Shown here piece by piece: positions 18,917-25,486 of a stretch of 26,451 bases of DNA. Numbering within the stretch: the first letter of the stretch is position 1; every line of letters begins with the position of its first letter. The notes under the pieces are model-generated. The model ran no database searches. It saw only the letters and a program-made list of their open reading frames with translations, and was not told the origin of the DNA. Origin of the DNA: a virus; IMG/VR virus record IMGVR_UViG_3300049433_000036, positions 1 to 26,451 of that record, one strand, 5' to 3'. The translations under genes were made by a program, and so were the position numbers.

Positions 18917-18925
18917 ATGCCCGTG

Positions 18926-18964
18926 GGAATAGCTGGCCCGCGAGGATCAAATGCCAGCTATTCC
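18926..18964 (+). promoter_or_regulatory. Perfect 11-bp inverted repeat holding a ribosome site
   Basis: GGAATAGCTGG (18926-18936) pairs with CCAGCTATTCC (18954-18964) around a 17-base loop. The loop contains CGAGGATCAA and an ATG at 18951 that starts a 13-codon leader ORF. There is no T-run, so it is not a terminator; a hairpin presenting or hiding a ribosome site, or a DNA-binding site, is more likely. Confidence 0.55.
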
Positions 18965-18992
18965 AACGGACTACTCGATTGGTCCATCATGA
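18951..18992 (+). CDS. 13-codon leader ORF coupled to the tail gene
   Basis: ATG at 18951 with GAGG 5 bases upstream; reads MPAIPTDYSIGPS and stops at TGA 18990-18992. That TGA overlaps the ATG (18989) of the tail gene as ATGA, the same coupling used elsewhere in this genome. The ribosome site lies in the loop of the 11-bp inverted repeat. The peptide has no recognised motif. Its short length means it could be chance, but the combination of site, hairpin and coupling supports it. Confidence 0.45.
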   Translation: MPAIPTDYSIGPS

Positions 18993-19999
18993 GTTCTCTA
19001 TCTGATATCATCGCAGCAGCAAAAGCACAAATCAAAACAAGTACATCGGAATCAAAAAGCACTCTCAGCAATACCTTCAGTATAGGCACCAATGACATTA
19101 AGGGTGAGGTCAAGAGCTTCGTGCCTAATCTCATTCAAGGTGCTACCCGTCAGGTTACCGGCGGTATCAATCAAGCACTAAACGCAGGATTAACTGACGT
19201 TAGGGGCGGAGTGTCTGATATTCTGCACGGTAACTTTAATGGAGGCCTAGAAAGGATTCTTAGTGGCCCTTCCGATGTATTGGGTTCATTGGGCAAAACA
19301 TTCGGGTTATCTACTGGATCGAAGTTATCAAATCCCGGAGGTGTAGCACCCGGTAATAGCCTCGAGGGTATACTAGCCCGCTCTGATCCTCAACTGAGCT
19401 TCAACTGGTACTGCCAACTCCCAGTCGTCACAGCTATAGGTGGGCAGCCTAAAGGTCTACCGTGGTTTTTCGTAGAAGAAGCTACATTGGCTTTCCGCAC
19501 ATTCACGCCTGTGTCTCGTTTCTATCAGGGCAGACAACAACACATTCCAGGTAGTTACACAGTAGATGCTTTGTCCTTAGCAATATACGCTGATACGGCT
19601 AACCTTGCGCTAGATTACCTAACTTCATGGCAAGGCGCTATCATGAAGAACATGAAACGTACGGATGCTGATAAATCAGGCGGCGGCTTTGGTCGCCCTA
19701 AGGATTACTATAAGACCATACCTATTTATCTTTTGTCTAACGATAAGAAAACTCTGTGCGTAATCGAATACACTGAATGCTGGCCCGAAACCATACAAGC
19801 CTACTCATTGAATAGCGGTAGCTCAGAACGCATAGTCAATCATGTCACTTTCTCCACTGGTGATGTATTCGTAACTCTATTTGGGGTATCGAATACAAGC
19901 AGCAAGGGCATGCTACCATTTGTCCAAGATGCTGCGTCCTCGCTGGTAAATTTCGCAGCAAGTTCAGTACTAGGTGCAGCTAGGTCTTTGTTTGGCTAG
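18989..19999 (+). CDS. Tail-tube/baseplate protein (gp19/gp54-like)
   Basis: Residues 137-300 resemble the T4 tail-tube fold: LSFNWYCQLPVV, VEEATLAFRTFTPVSRFYQG, IPGSYTVDALSLAIYADTAN, then YYKTIPIYLLSNDKKTLCVI and WPETIQAYSLNSGSSERIV followed by HVTFSTGDVFV, the last being the W-P-x-x-I ... V-x-F signature of tube-like proteins. A 130-residue N-terminal part is Ser/Gly-rich, suggesting a baseplate or tube-initiator role (as gp54) over a plain tube subunit. ATG 18989 gives 336 aa; an in-frame ATG at 18917 would add 24 residues but lies against the terminator's T-run with no ribosome site. The start is coupled to the 13-codon leader. Confidence 0.7.
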   Translation: MSSLSDIIAAAKAQIKTSTSESKSTLSNTFSIGTNDIKGEVKSFVPNLIQGATRQVTGGINQALNAGLTDVRGGVSDILHGNFNGGLERILSGPSDVLGSLGKTFGLSTGSKLSNPGGVAPGNSLEGILARSDPQLSFNWYCQLPVVTAIGGQPKGLPWFFVEEATLAFRTFTPVSRFYQGRQQHIPGSYTVDALSLAIYADTANLALDYLTSWQGAIMKNMKRTDADKSGGGFGRPKDYYKTIPIYLLSNDKKTLCVIEYTECWPETIQAYSLNSGSSERIVNHVTFSTGDVFVTLFGVSNTSSKGMLPFVQDAASSLVNFAASSVLGAARSLFG

Positions 20000-20030: not shown

Positions 20031-21107
20031 ATGACCGATACCACAAAACAAGAATTTGTACCCTTCCCTGCTCAACGTATTCAACAGTTAGAAGAACGTC
20101 GTAAGGCTGCTGAGCCTTATCACAGCCCTCACCATCCATTACCTCGCACAAATCCTATACCTGGTATTGTTGGTGCTGATATGAAAACCAACTTCACCAT
20201 GGCGGAAGCCCAGCCGGCTACCGATGCACATCAAGCTAGTCCTGCTTATGTGAATGCGCAGGTAGCAGCCGCTGCGCCTATCGCACCGCAGATTCCTGTT
20301 GTAGTCCCTGGCTTTACTACACCAACTTCCGAGGAAGAGGCAGTACCTATTGCCCTTCCTAGCGGGTACGCATTCTACGACTTCAAGGATCTGTACATTA
20401 AGCCATTCAAAGGCCGTCACATGGCCAAGCTGAGTCGCGCACGGGAAGAAGGCTCGACCTTGTACACCGTAGAAGCCGTGTCTGCTGTACTAAGCACGCC
20501 ACAAGGTCATACACATCTAGCCTTCCAGCTTACTGTGCCTGACTTCTACTATGTGCTGTATTGGTTGCGCTTGAACAGTTTCACCAAGACGGCATTCATG
20601 CACAAGACTTCGTGCGCCAACGAAAAGCATATCGAAGCAGTGGCAGAAGGTAAGCTGCTGAAAGATACACTAGTCATCGCAGAGGTTATCAATCGTGCTT
20701 CTATGCAAGAGACTAATCTGAAGTCTATTCCTAATAAGGAAGCCTTCAAGTTAGACCTGCCGGGTGCTTGGGTCAAAGTATGTACCATGCAGGATGCTCT
20801 CGAAATGACTGAAGACGCAGAATTCATTTCTGAAGAATTCAGATACGCGGCAGAGATTGCTTGCTATCTGGACGTATCAGATGTACAGAATGAAGACAAG
20901 ACATTCCGTAAAGCGACGTTGCGTGAGCGAATAGCCTACGTAGACGAAATGTCACCAGATGATATTCAAACCGTAAAGTCCTTCGAGAAGGCAGTCACCG
21001 ATTACGGTATCATAGAGACTATCAGTGTGACTTGTAAACACTGTGGTCAAAAACGTACCGATGCTATCACTTTGGACGCCCATAGTTTTTTCCCATCGGC
21101 AGCATGA
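20031..21107 (+). CDS. Baseplate assembly protein (gp26-like), frameshift donor
   Basis: 358 aa. The N-terminal 110 residues are Pro/Ala-rich and probably disordered. The folded part (112-358) has LTVPDFYYVLYWLRLNSF (167-184), HKTSCANEKH (Cys195, His200) and near the end TCKHCGQKRTDAITL with HSFFP (Cys335/338), giving a likely zinc site from two distant pairs. From memory this resembles T4 gp26-type baseplate hub assembly proteins. It sits directly ahead of the tape-measure-like gene, where tail-assembly chaperones lie in many phages. Codons 352-354 hold a T-TTT-TTC slippery site, so a minor product of 412 aa extended by the next frame is probable. Ribosome site AGAGAATACC. Confidence 0.7.
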   Translation: MTDTTKQEFVPFPAQRIQQLEERRKAAEPYHSPHHPLPRTNPIPGIVGADMKTNFTMAEAQPATDAHQASPAYVNAQVAAAAPIAPQIPVVVPGFTTPTSEEEAVPIALPSGYAFYDFKDLYIKPFKGRHMAKLSRAREEGSTLYTVEAVSAVLSTPQGHTHLAFQLTVPDFYYVLYWLRLNSFTKTAFMHKTSCANEKHIEAVAEGKLLKDTLVIAEVINRASMQETNLKSIPNKEAFKLDLPGAWVKVCTMQDALEMTEDAEFISEEFRYAAEIACYLDVSDVQNEDKTFRKATLRERIAYVDEMSPDDIQTVKSFEKAVTDYGIIETISVTCKHCGQKRTDAITLDAHSFFPSAA

Positions 21108-21141
21108 ATGACATAGCGAGTATGCATGCGCTCATTGCTGC
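21086..21141 (+). promoter_or_regulatory. Programmed -1 ribosomal frameshift signal
   Basis: TTTTTTC (21086-21092) is in the correct phase (T-TTT-TTC) for tandem slippage. After a 6-base spacer comes a stem: GCAGCATGA (21099-21107) pairs with TCA-(T)-TGCTGC (21132-21141, one bulged T), loop 24 bases. The stop of the 0 frame (21105-21107) is inside the stem. Shifting by -1 enters the open frame at 21092-21268 and adds 58 residues after Phe354. Confidence 0.68.
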
Positions 21142-21268
21142 GGAATTTCATTTGATACCTCCTGACTCAATGTCTATTTTCCAAATTATGCATTTGGCAC
21201 AAACTGCTGAGAAACGCAGGGCTGATAGGCATAAGGCATTGAGTGAAGGCAAGACTTATATTGGATAA
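21104..21268 (+). CDS. 54-codon ORF in the -1 frame, likely frameshift extension
   Basis: Open from the ATG overlapping the previous stop (ATGA) to TAA at 21266-21268, three bases before the next gene. The peptide is MNDIASMHALIAAEFHLIPP, then DSMSIFQIMHLAQTAEKRRA, then a basic end: mostly helical, as in the short C-terminal 'T' parts of tail-assembly chaperones. There is no ribosome-binding site before the ATG, which favours entry by -1 frameshift from the upstream gene (412-aa fusion) over independent initiation. A stand-alone gp51-like protein made by stop-start coupling is the alternative. Confidence 0.65.
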   Translation: MNDIASMHALIAAEFHLIPPDSMSIFQIMHLAQTAEKRRADRHKALSEGKTYIG

Positions 21269-21271
21269 ATC

Positions 21272-22939
21272 ATGGCCTTTAAATCGCAGGCAGAGCAGAA
21301 CAAGTGGAATGCCCTCCAAAACACCGGAGGACAGACAATTGAGAAATTGCTGAAAGGGGAAGCCACACCTGACGATATCACCAAGCTGTCAAAGTTAGTG
21401 AGTGATCAAAGTAAGCTTGCTGGTAAACTATTTGATGAAGGTATAGCCGGAGTAGAGTCAACCGCCGATGCCCTCATCGATAAGATGAATCAAAATCGCA
21501 TCGCTATAGGTAAGAATCCGCTCACCCCTAAAGCACAGGATCGACTATTCAAGCAGACGTTCCAAAATGTTTTGAAGGCAGCCACAGAAGACATTCTAGG
21601 TTCTGTGCATGACCAACTTGCAGAGCAGACCGAGAGCATTCAGGATAGTTTGGATACAGTCACTGAACGTCTGCACAAGATACAGACCGAACGCCGCACT
21701 CGGGAAGAACAGGAAGCGCCTATTCGATCTCTGTCGGACAAAGTAGGCTCGCTGGTTTCTAGCATCAGAGCAAGCGGTATCGTTACGTCAGGCACATCCA
21801 GTCTACGCAAACTGGCTACTAAATCGCGTGAGGTCTTAGAGTCAGGTAAAGAAGTTGCTGGTAAAGGCATTCGACAATTTGGGGAAGCAATTCGTAATCC
21901 TCGCAGAACTATAGACAACACTACGACCTATCTACGTAGCTCAGTAGGTGCGATGAAGGACGCAGTTGTAGATGGCTGGCGCAAGCTTACGAATAAGAAT
22001 GAAACAGATGACGAGGATAAGAAATCTAGTACATGGCTCCGTAAGCTCAAGTCGCTGTTTGGATCAGGCAAAGATAAATTAGACAAAGGTAAAAGAGCTG
22101 CCTCGTTCCTTGGAAAGCTTTTTGGACCCATAGGTAAAGTGCTGTTGTTAGCTCTAGCCAACCCGCAATTGATTAAAACAATTACGGATGCAGTGTCCAA
22201 ATATCTAAACTTCGATACTATATCAGATTTTGTGGACTCTACTTGGAAGGATATCAAGAAAGGTGGCGCTGATATAGTAGATTGGATACTAGACAAGATA
22301 CGAGGTACGGCAGATAAAAAAGTCGCTGCAAATTCACCCAACACTGTTGAAGGTAAAGCTGCTATCGCAACATCTGTAGCCCAAGGTTCACAGATACCTG
22401 CTAATACTAGCGCTAGTGATGCCCGTGCAGCGATACCTGAAATAGAATCAAAGATAAAGGCAACCAAGGTTGCTCTGAGTCGCGCACAGGATAGGCTTTC
22501 TAAAGACCCGTCAGACGACAATAAGATTTCGGTCAGAAACAACACAATACGTCTGCAAATTCTTCAAGGGCAATTGGACAACTATAAGAAAGTCACAGGA
22601 GTCCCAACTGCTAAACCTGCTGACACAAAGACGTTGACTTCTACATCTGCTGGTAGTACGGGAGGTACTGATAGCACCACTGTGACTCCTACGGCATTAA
22701 CTGGTGCAACAGGCCCATCACCTGCTTCTATCGCTGCATCCACAACGGCTGTAGGTTCAATGCCTCAATTCAAAGAAGGTATAGCAATTGAAACACCTCG
22801 GCCAGACCAAGCACTATCTGAAGGCAACAAGACAGCAGGCAATGCAGCGCCAGGGGGAGGTATCGTAAGCCTAGGCTCGTTTGGTTACAACAGTGGTGAT
22901 GATACTCTTAATCTACTCAACATGGGCTTAATAGGATGA
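21272..22939 (+). CDS. Tape-measure-like tail protein, 555 aa
   Basis: Predicted helical with a coiled coil around 110-145 (DQLAEQTESIQDSLDTVTER), a hydrophobic segment at 279-298 (FLGKLFGPIGKVLLLALANP), charged helices, then a Thr/Ser/Pro/Ala-rich linker (about 440-510) and a Gly-rich end. Length is close to T4 gp29 (590 aa), the tape measure and hub component, and the place after the putative chaperone fits. No catalytic domain. Because a long tail needs a long tape measure, either the tail is short to medium or the next gene, to which it is coupled by ATGA, supplies the rest. Assignment rests on composition and context. Confidence 0.55.
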   Translation: MAFKSQAEQNKWNALQNTGGQTIEKLLKGEATPDDITKLSKLVSDQSKLAGKLFDEGIAGVESTADALIDKMNQNRIAIGKNPLTPKAQDRLFKQTFQNVLKAATEDILGSVHDQLAEQTESIQDSLDTVTERLHKIQTERRTREEQEAPIRSLSDKVGSLVSSIRASGIVTSGTSSLRKLATKSREVLESGKEVAGKGIRQFGEAIRNPRRTIDNTTTYLRSSVGAMKDAVVDGWRKLTNKNETDDEDKKSSTWLRKLKSLFGSGKDKLDKGKRAASFLGKLFGPIGKVLLLALANPQLIKTITDAVSKYLNFDTISDFVDSTWKDIKKGGADIVDWILDKIRGTADKKVAANSPNTVEGKAAIATSVAQGSQIPANTSASDARAAIPEIESKIKATKVALSRAQDRLSKDPSDDNKISVRNNTIRLQILQGQLDNYKKVTGVPTAKPADTKTLTSTSAGSTGGTDSTTVTPTALTGATGPSPASIAASTTAVGSMPQFKEGIAIETPRPDQALSEGNKTAGNAAPGGGIVSLGSFGYNSGDDTLNLLNMGLIG

Positions 22940-24339
22940 CTTACGCACTAGCTAGATTTCAACCTAGACCTAAAGAAAATAAGTCCATCGTTGAATCAGT
23001 CAAGGATGCGGCTAACGTCGCTACCTTGAGTGGTACGCTTGCTGCCTGGTCCGCACGAAAGAAAAAACAGTTAGAGGATCAGCGGCACGTTATAGAGTCT
23101 ATGAGGTTCTTGCAATCTAGGCTTGAAGAGCAGCCAGATATAGAGGATGAAGATATGGTGTCTCCTCTTCGCAAGATTCTTACTAAGATTCTGAAGTTCT
23201 GTGCTAAGAAGGTATTTAAATATGTGGTTCGTCCCATATTAAGGTTTGCTGCACGCATCATGATGAATCTGGTGCGTGTGGTGCTGACCTCGATAGTAGA
23301 TTTCGTCATTGTTCCGGCCATAGAACTTGTGGTAACGTTCGCAATAGCCAACCCCGTAACGGCTGCACTTGGTGCTATCTTGCTTGTAGGTGGAGGTGCA
23401 TATTTTCTGTGGGATAAATTCTTTGCTGAGAAACCGCCAGAACCAAAGATACCGCAGAAGGACATTGATCTACGTGGCGAACCAGAGCTTGGTATAGCGG
23501 AACCAGAAACTCGTAGGTCTACCCCAGCAGCAACACAGTATCAACAACCCGCAATACAACCGGAAGCAGAGCCTTCTATAGTATCGGCGCCTTTAGAATT
23601 CATCAAAGAACAGTACCATAAAGTAACAGGTAAAAAGTTCACTGGTTTCGGCGAAGACGTAGATAGCTATATAAAAGAAGCAGCAGCCAAGTATGGTATA
23701 CCAGAGGATGTTCTGCGCGGTTTCGTTAAAATGGAAGCCGGTTGGACCGGTGCTATGTCTCCTACAGGCGCTATCGGTACTGGTCAATTCATTCAACCTA
23801 CATGGGATGCGATGGCCGCTACGCCTGAAGGTAAGGCCATAGGTATGACCAAGATTGGTGACAGGTTCCGAACTTCTCAAGATCCTCGTTTTAACAAGCG
23901 CGTCAACACGCTGGCTACGGGTTTGCTTGCAAAGAACAATGCAAAGATATTGCAGCAGAATGGTTTGCCCCTTACAGGCGAGAATCTGTATATGATGCAC
24001 AATATTGGCCCTGGTATCATCGATGTTATGTTAGGTCGCCCAGCATCTGCTGCAACACTTAAGGCCATGCAACAGAACGGTATGCTTAAAGGACAGAACG
24101 CCGCGCAGTTCCTGGCCTACCAGAAAGGACGATTTGCATCTGCTTACGCGGAAGCCAATCTGGGTACTACGGTGAACCCGACTAATCCGCGGTATACGGA
24201 AGGCATTTCTGTAGCTGCTGCGTCCAAGTCCAGAGCACCTGCTACCCAAACTACGCCAGACAGCAAGGCGGGGGTAGCTGCTGCGTCGCCAGATAAGACT
24301 ATCATCAAAGATGGTAAGAAACTAATAGCTCTAGGATAA
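22936..24339 (+). CDS. Tail-associated lytic transglycosylase with membrane segments
   Basis: 467 aa. N-terminal basic helices, then a long hydrophobic region at about 112-158 (VVLTSIVDFVIVPAIELVVT, then GAILLVGGGAYFLW) that could form two membrane-spanning segments, a Pro/Glu linker (165-220), and an SLT-type domain (about 240-400). The domain has YGIPEDVLRGFVKMEAGW with catalytic-type Glu267, SPTGAIGTGQFIQPTW (275-290), and YMMHNIGPG. It would cut peptidoglycan during DNA entry. The lack of a signal peptide and its tail-gene setting argue against a lysis endolysin. Ends in a Ser/Ala-rich tail. Probably travels in the tail with the preceding protein. Confidence 0.78.
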   Translation: MTYALARFQPRPKENKSIVESVKDAANVATLSGTLAAWSARKKKQLEDQRHVIESMRFLQSRLEEQPDIEDEDMVSPLRKILTKILKFCAKKVFKYVVRPILRFAARIMMNLVRVVLTSIVDFVIVPAIELVVTFAIANPVTAALGAILLVGGGAYFLWDKFFAEKPPEPKIPQKDIDLRGEPELGIAEPETRRSTPAATQYQQPAIQPEAEPSIVSAPLEFIKEQYHKVTGKKFTGFGEDVDSYIKEAAAKYGIPEDVLRGFVKMEAGWTGAMSPTGAIGTGQFIQPTWDAMAATPEGKAIGMTKIGDRFRTSQDPRFNKRVNTLATGLLAKNNAKILQQNGLPLTGENLYMMHNIGPGIIDVMLGRPASAATLKAMQQNGMLKGQNAAQFLAYQKGRFASAYAEANLGTTVNPTNPRYTEGISVAAASKSRAPATQTTPDSKAGVAAASPDKTIIKDGKKLIALG

Positions 24340-24341
24340 TT

Positions 24342-25151
24342 ATGCCGAATAATAACCCGAACTATCAGGTCATCATTCAACAGACTGCTGATCCATCTGC
24401 AAAGACACCAACAGGTATTTCCATTGTTGCCAATCTGCCAGAGAATTTTGCTTTCGATAGTACCAGCTCTTATGAGACTCCTTATGCACAAGGTATTTTT
24501 GGTGCGGGTGCCAACGCCGCCGCTGCTTTTACTGGAACGCGTCTGACTACGCAAGCCCAGACGGCACGCATCTGGCAAGGTGCTACGGATTCTGACTTGA
24601 TGCTAGACTTTGAATTCTTTGCTGAGAATGACCCTGACGCCGATGTGATGCAAAAGACGTTGAACATGCTACGTCTTACTGCACCCACTATTGACCCACA
24701 AACAGGTATGCTGCGATCCCCTGGACCACAACTTGTTTTGAATGATGCAGGTCAACTATCTACCAATCTAGTTACATCAACTGGTAATAGTTTAAAGCAA
24801 GTAGGAAATGCAGCTGCCAGTTTAGTTGGCTTCGGTAATAAAGTTCAACAGAAGAATATGAACGGAGCTAATGCCAACTTGAGTGCTACTGGGGTATCCA
24901 ATACGCCACCTCAACCAGATGCTGCAGGTACTGCTGACTTCTGGAAACGTCAGGTACGAAATCAGATATCGATTAAGATAGGACGTTACGCTTTCTTCGA
25001 TTCAGTGGTCATTATGAATGTACAGAAAACGTATTCACACAATCTGGATGCGTTGACTGGGCAGCCTCTACATGCAAAGGTTTCGATTCGCTTCGCACCG
25101 CTATTCCTGCTGACGCAGGATGATATCGTCAATATCTTCAGGGCCCGATAA
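24342..25151 (+). CDS. Baseplate protein, gp48/gp54-like (tentative)
   Basis: 269 aa. N- and C-terminal beta-rich parts surround a Ser/Asn/Ala-rich middle (about 130-195). The C-terminal part (206-262) reads RNQISIKIGRYAFFDSVVIM, then GQPLHAKVSIRFAPLFLLTQ, resembling the sequence 'G-x-P-x-x-A-x-V-x-x-x-F' seen in tube-like and LysM-associated baseplate proteins. Early on, LMLDFEFFAENDPDADVM (86-103) looks like a second such strand pair. Assignment to the inner baseplate is by this pattern and by its place between the transglycosylase and a gp53-like gene. Overlaps the next start by one base (TAATG). Confidence 0.55.
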   Translation: MPNNNPNYQVIIQQTADPSAKTPTGISIVANLPENFAFDSTSSYETPYAQGIFGAGANAAAAFTGTRLTTQAQTARIWQGATDSDLMLDFEFFAENDPDADVMQKTLNMLRLTAPTIDPQTGMLRSPGPQLVLNDAGQLSTNLVTSTGNSLKQVGNAAASLVGFGNKVQQKNMNGANANLSATGVSNTPPQPDAAGTADFWKRQVRNQISIKIGRYAFFDSVVIMNVQKTYSHNLDALTGQPLHAKVSIRFAPLFLLTQDDIVNIFRAR

Positions 25152-25486
25152 TGAGCATTGACTATGATTTCTCGACAAATACGCCTCTAGACAACACGGG
25201 CACCAACTATTCGATCTTTAAGAGTGGTTTTAAAAATATTCGTTTCGCCATTCCATTCACTCGTACTGTGGTGATCGATGAGTCCGATATGGCAAATCTG
25301 GTTGGTATAGCATTCCGTTTATACGGCGATGTAAGTCTATGGCGTGCACTGTTAGCCTACAACGGTATTCAGGATCAGATACAGGAAGTTTATCCTGGGC
25401 TCGTGCTGCGGTGCCCGAACAAGTCCGATATCATTGCCTATATAAGTGCGCAAAAGGGCAATCAGAGTCCAACAATAATCATCTGA
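25151..25486 (+). CDS. LysM-like baseplate wedge protein (gp53-like)
   Basis: 111 aa. Residues 59-97 form a LysM-type sequence: GDVSLWRALLAYNGIQDQ, then EVYPGLVLRCPNKSDIIAYI, with the usual 'G-D-x-x-x-W ... N-G-I ... P-G-x-x-L-x-x-P' order. In T4-type baseplates gp53 uses a LysM fold to bridge the wedges and the central hub. The protein is about half the length of T4 gp53 and lacks its extra N-terminal part. It is in step with the gp27-like gene that follows. Confidence 0.68.
   Translation: MSIDYDFSTNTPLDNTGTNYSIFKSGFKNIRFAIPFTRTVVIDESDMANLVGIAFRLYGDVSLWRALLAYNGIQDQIQEVYPGLVLRCPNKSDIIAYISAQKGNQSPTIII

Follow-up and report, generated by a model that had tools for sequence, protein, structure and literature searches.

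A T4 gp26/gp51-family tail assembly chaperone gene with a probable −1 frameshifted long form of the lambda G/GT type

In phage lambda, a short and a long protein (G and GT) come from a single gene that immediately precedes the tape measure gene, and the long form arises by a −1 slip close to the 3′ end of that gene (Xu et al. 2004, reviewed in PMC5009743). Such G-T frameshifting occurs widely among long-tailed phages “except T4,” and not all of these phages shift in the same direction (PMC5009743). For the T4-like phages, the chaperone genes were identified by Vladimirov, Gautam and Davidson (2022), and papers that cite this study describe T4-like TAC genes as having either poly-T slippery sites or a short and a long gene copy. 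Because of these two sources (Atkins et al. 2016, PMC5009743; Vladimirov et al. 2022, as described by citing papers), the kind of system described here is known, and the T4-like part of our result is probably known as well. A duplication in T4 was considered as a new explanation and dropped, as it is already published (Vladimirov et al. 2022).

The stretch of DNA analyzed here (the window, 26,451 bases) is a jumbo-phage-like structural region with the gene order portal, tail tube, gp26-like, putative tape measure, transglycosylase-bearing protein, and PmgG-like protein. Judging from the sequence comparisons given below, the gene at 20031-21107 very probably encodes a T4 gp26/gp51-family tail assembly chaperone with a −1 frameshifted, lambda G/GT-type long form. 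Its short product scores 26.2 bits against PF12322, above the curated cut-off of 24.5, and matches phrog_13792 (E 2.4e-35) and phrog_150 (baseplate hub, E 5e-7). No solved structure was matched by sequence. The predicted −1 slip lies near the 3′ end of the gene as in lambda, and neither form is expected in the virion. In contrast, the lambda heptamer is not T TTT TTC, and the window is from a myophage with a T4-type gene. No sequence relationship to lambda G is claimed. A literature search, which covered few subscription journals, found no report of a frameshift in the jumbo-phage family of the window. The features are listed in Table 1.

Table 1 Features of the chaperone locus and its neighbors in the window
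Feature	Positions	Strand	Remark
Tail-tube-like protein, directly upstream	18917..19999	+	phrog_45, E 2.5e-16
gp26-like gene, short chaperone form (TAC-N / G-like)	20031..21107	+	358 aa
−1 slippery heptamer T TTT TTC	21086..21092	+	In phase with 20031-21107
Second heptamer T TTC CCA, in phase, overlaps the first	21089..21095	+	Yields an identical fused protein
Spacer, 6 nt	21093..21098	+	
Hairpin, possible stimulator	21099..21141	+	9 bp, one bulge at 21135
−1 frame extension, 58 codons + stop (predicted T-like domain, long form TAC-NC)	21092..21268	+	
54-aa ORF, the −1 frame read separately from ATG (rival reading)	21104..21268	+	
Putative tape-measure protein, first part, 555 aa	21272..22939	+	Assigned by position
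467-aa protein with transglycosylase-like region	22936..24339	+	phrog_4067 transglycosylase, E 8.4e-19

The 3′ end of the gp26-like ORF reads ...GAC GCC CAT AGT TTT TTC CCA TCG GCA GCA TGA. The heptamer T TTT TTC fits the X XXY YYZ phase of this frame and lies 12 bases before the stop (TGA, 21105-21107). From 21092, the −1 frame continues as CCC ATC GGC AGC ATG... to a stop at 21266-21268, which is 3 bases ahead of the next gene with its ATG at 21272. The window makes no use of the +1 frame because this frame closes at once, 4 nt beyond the 0-frame stop position. The initial annotation had described the same signal, and every coordinate that it gave was exact.

Most ribosomes would stop at the TGA at 21105 and release the short form. 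A minority would slip back one base on T TTT TTC, with tRNA-Phe re-pairing on TTT in both sites, and would read on for 58 codons. The resulting long form, 413 codons with the stop counted, would carry a T-like domain at its C-terminus. The junction peptide of the fused form is predicted to be SFF-PIGSMNDIASMHALIAAEF. The comparisons below show the site, the conserved fused reading, and its equivalence to the in-frame long paralogues; slippage in the cell, its frequency, and the binding roles of the two forms are inferred. If the pair works as G and GT do in lambda, the N-terminal domain common to both forms would cover the tape-measure protein made from the following gene, and tail-tube subunits would be recruited by the extension of the minor form.

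Taken singly, the heptamer and the hairpin of the window are each compatible with chance. Given Ser-Phe-Phe, T TTT TTC is expected from codon usage at ~8%. Across the 7,807 codon positions of the window, 12 sites fit X XXY YYZ in phase. Just the two overlapping sites among these 12 are located ≤30 nt from a gene end with a −1 frame of >50 codons. The site is far above chance because it is conserved in relatives.

Searches of phage records and viral contigs gave 30 different single-copy loci, window included, among them Motura, BcepSaruman/BcepSauron, PhiXhv, Rhizobium RHEph12, phiXF1, and QdP_Psa3. In the viral-contig search, the window protein alone had no match, and an alignment query was needed to obtain matches. 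The single copy was confirmed by whole-record search in the single-copy records tested. In 30/30 loci, an extension in a shifted frame starts from conserved S-F-F/L (SFF/SFL) codons. The fused proteins align almost gaplessly from FFP on, mostly over 58-59 residues and even upstream of start codons, and the window extension aligns in this way with those of the 29 other loci. L027 and L032, the closest relatives of the window, have T TTT TTC in exact phase, as does, separately, L012; the overlapping T TTC CCA is common to the window and L032 and is absent from L027 and L012. Loss of the heptamer in close relatives that keep the downstream frame had been named beforehand as evidence against the signal. 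We found that the nearest relatives keep T TTT TTC and that L030 and 25 more distant loci retain the extension behind a +1 site, so the direction there differs from the window while the fused product is unchanged. In phiXF1 (L022:4167-4315) and QdP_Psa3 (L023:4167-4318), the unannotated gaps between the chaperone and tape-measure genes carry a +1 extension.

In HRDY3, Lu11, PaBG, NCTB, Yoloswag, and Sen-NF, two paralogues lie in tandem ahead of the tape measure (one-copy versus two-copy status was checked over whole records). Their short copy ends with ...DAHSFFV or similar, and the long copy continues through the extension without a change of frame. Against the long paralogue, the fused window-family profile aligns through the junction (hhalign 99.9%, E 4e-35), whereas its match to the short paralogue (hhalign 99.7%, E 2.5e-27) ends at ASFF. 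Together, the two matches are the best non-experimental evidence that the fused molecule would be the functional one. The PaBG paper mentions no such frameshift. Together with the heptamer in L027, L032, and L012 and the fused protein in the 30 single-copy loci, the in-frame long paralogues support the lambda G/GT-type −1 reading that had been put forward for the window.

T4 gp26 (208 aa) and gp51 (249 aa) both fall in PF12322 and belong to the same family as the window protein by Pfam and profile, with the junction at the same SFF position. T4 differs in having two separate genes, short gp26 and long gp51, and no frameshift. Cyanophage Syn9 has one PF12322 gene, the end of which is overlapped by the gp51 C-terminal family phrog_634. 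The Syn9 junction is GCT TCT TTT TTC GGG TAG, and the gp51 part is in the −1 frame. In all 80 of the marine T4-like loci retrieved, gene 26 ends with the in-phase heptamer T TTT TTC, identical to that of the window, then one codon and the stop, and the gp51 C-terminus is in the −1 frame. Hence, the initial annotation was wrong in expecting a gp26-like donor to be unusual for T4-type phages. KVP40, Stenotrophomonas Yut3, and Aeromonas AS-zj have T TTT TTC as well, and variant heptamers occur in phiM12 (T TTT TTT) and RL38J1 (T TTT TTG), all of them −1.

The fused marine profile is colinear with T4 gp51 over 237 columns (98.6%, E 8.5e-16) and, through the junction, with the window family over 251 columns (96.7%, E 3.3e-10); SFF is aligned in both matches. 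Compared directly, the profiles of the window family and of T4 gp51 gave no significant match, and the link between the two appeared only through the marine T4-like intermediates. The window extension is not recognizably the gp51 C-terminus by sequence: the extension of the window family has no phrog match, phrog_634 (gp51 C-terminus) included, and an hhalign comparison of the extension only with the gp51 C-terminal region was not significant. The T4-type chaperone gene would behave like lambda G/GT in many large phages, and T4 with its two genes therefore looks derived and not the rule. Syn9 gp13 (L083:2249-2392) and its equivalents in L165, L164, and L166 are annotated as “gp51-like baseplate hub assembly catalyst.” By sequence, the “gp51-like” ORFs in the cyanophage, KVP40, and phiM12 records look like −1 extensions of gp26. 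In cyanophage, KVP40-like, and jumbo phage records, a small ORF labeled “hypothetical” or “gp51-like” that lies between gene 26 and the tape measure is probably not a gene of its own.

A separate gene could also be read from the window if the 54-aa ORF were translated from ATG 21104 by stop-start coupling and the heptamer were incidental. This ATG overlaps the TGA stop as ATGA, a layout that could permit re-initiation and would allow a 54-aa product beginning MNDIASMH, and the existing annotations of relatives call small separate ORFs. We nevertheless consider two genes improbable. The ATG is preceded by TTTTTTCCCATCGGCAGC and has no Shine-Dalgarno sequence; an earlier statement that no ribosome site precedes it is correct for 21104, with the ATGA overlap as the proviso. 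In relatives, start codons are at inconsistent places, and in 10/30 loci the first possible start (ATG/GTG/TTG) is at least 13 codons into the conserved extension; therefore, a small protein translated on its own cannot be what these loci make in general. Moreover, conserved FP(L/I/V) residues lie upstream of the ATG, the extension is fused in frame in the two-copy phages and in T4, and the heptamer is kept in all 80 marine T4-like loci.

Among the 30 single-copy loci, −1 with T TTT TTC is needed in the window, L027 (= L028), L032, and L012. In the remaining 26, a +1 shift is required, and the TTT at the site always precedes a C or T. Most of these sites are TTT CTT YCC, or TTC TTT CCC / TTT CCC TAA, and on TTT-Y a move of one base forward can leave tRNA-Phe perfectly paired. 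The Leu codon at the +1 sites is CTT in 17/18 cases against an average CTT usage of ~16%, which argues for selection on the nucleotides at the site; kinship of the loci, and the fact that these bases are also read in +1, weaken this statistically, not as a pattern. A −2 shift in the relatives was ruled out, as TTT and CTT cannot re-pair two bases back there. In a maximum-likelihood tree built from the shared part, the branches with good support require no fewer than two direction switches, and bootstrap trees with a single −1/+1 change were not obtained (0/200). Among the +1 loci, L030 is the nearest sister to the window clade; from the Ser codon to the ATG, it differs from the window by a net two nucleotides.

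Hence, it is likely that −1, +1, and duplication interchange freely at one fixed codon position of one homologous chaperone gene, with the short and long proteins kept, and that −1 appeared on at least two occasions among +1 relatives; for the window versus L030, this took a net two-nucleotide change. This interchange is the less expected part of the result and, if true, means that the protein pair is conserved while the decoding route to it can be exchanged. The literature search, which covered few subscription journals, found no report of switching between −1 and +1 at one site. The natural pairs L030 versus window and BcepSaruman versus L012, with the same product by +1 or −1, are useful for testing direction and ratio. 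The +1 sites of relatives (TTT CTT YCC, TTT CCC TAA) are similar to the +1 site of E. coli prfB. They also resemble the +1 site of Listeria phage PSA (PMC5009743), with YTT-Y or CCC and a nearby stop. The window itself differs from both systems, as it has no +1.

Slippage during transcription, with RNA polymerase stuttering on the T run, instead of slippage on the ribosome, is a very unlikely source of the fused product. A run of 6 T is present, but six T are short for efficient polymerase slippage, and the +1 sites of relatives are without a long homopolymer (TTT CTT CCC). T TTT TTC is in strict codon phase in 84 loci, which points to tRNA re-pairing. A sequencing or assembly error deserves next to no weight: the site is a homopolymer, and one more T would fuse the frames into a single long ORF that needs no frameshift, but this reading appears largely refuted by the same −1 arrangement in the independent contigs L027/L028, L032, and L012, each with a 0-frame stop a short way downstream, and by the same site in the isolate genomes of Syn9, KVP40, Yut3, and AS-zj.

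Downstream of the −1 site, 21099-21107 pairs with 21132-21134 and 21136-21141 to form the stem. Its MFE is −19.1 kcal/mol, and the stem alone is not beyond chance because 24 of 200 dinucleotide shuffles (12%) fold equally well (z −1.13). A hairpin starts 6-7 nt after the heptamer in the window, L032, and L027, and 17 nt after it in L012; the arm sequences in L027 are different. Downstream folding is more stable in the four −1 loci than in the 26 +1 loci (one-sided Mann-Whitney test, p 0.011), and the marine T4-like loci have a mild folding tendency only (mean z −1.3 vs mononucleotide shuffles). The 6-nt spacer and the bulged 9-bp stem of the initial annotation exist, and the stem-loop as a necessary part of the signal is weakly supported. 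The hairpin may stimulate slippage. In 79/79 marine T4-like loci (L084-L163), an SD-like purine run (GAGG/GAAGG) is found at most 21 nt upstream of the heptamer. This run may be a dnaX-type stimulator or a by-product of the conserved encoded Glu-Gly.

The 555-aa protein encoded after the chaperone had no confident family match. Its assignment as the putative tape measure rests on position, as an annotated tape measure directly follows the long paralogue in NCTB and the chaperone in phiXF1. The 467-aa protein probably makes up the second part of a split, Sit-like tape measure. The tape measure at 21272-24339 is seemingly split into 555 aa + 467 aa, and it is one long ORF in PhiXhv and Lu11.

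In phage P1, Sit is the tape measure with an SLT domain, and PmgB was proposed as the tape-measure chaperone upstream of sit (PMC9024508). PmgB has the same position as the window chaperone. It has no annotated frameshift, and its PF12322 match (E 2.5e-4) is below the cut-off, which makes the relationship borderline. A conserved stretch resembling the chaperone extension is found at the pmgB end of P1, JK004 (L075), and D6 (L076); in P1, it is in the +1 frame. Across the pmgB end of P1 (L063, NC_005856), the +1 frame reads ...SNLVLYGGIPIQDAERLTESYAFFLLEKLEEKLKPKR and stops just before sit. From this sequence, P1 PmgB may have an unannotated frameshifted long form.

Elsewhere in the window, an in-phase A AAG GGC is located at 25454-25460, 33 nt from the end of ORF 25151-25486, and the −1 frame after it is open for 34 codons.
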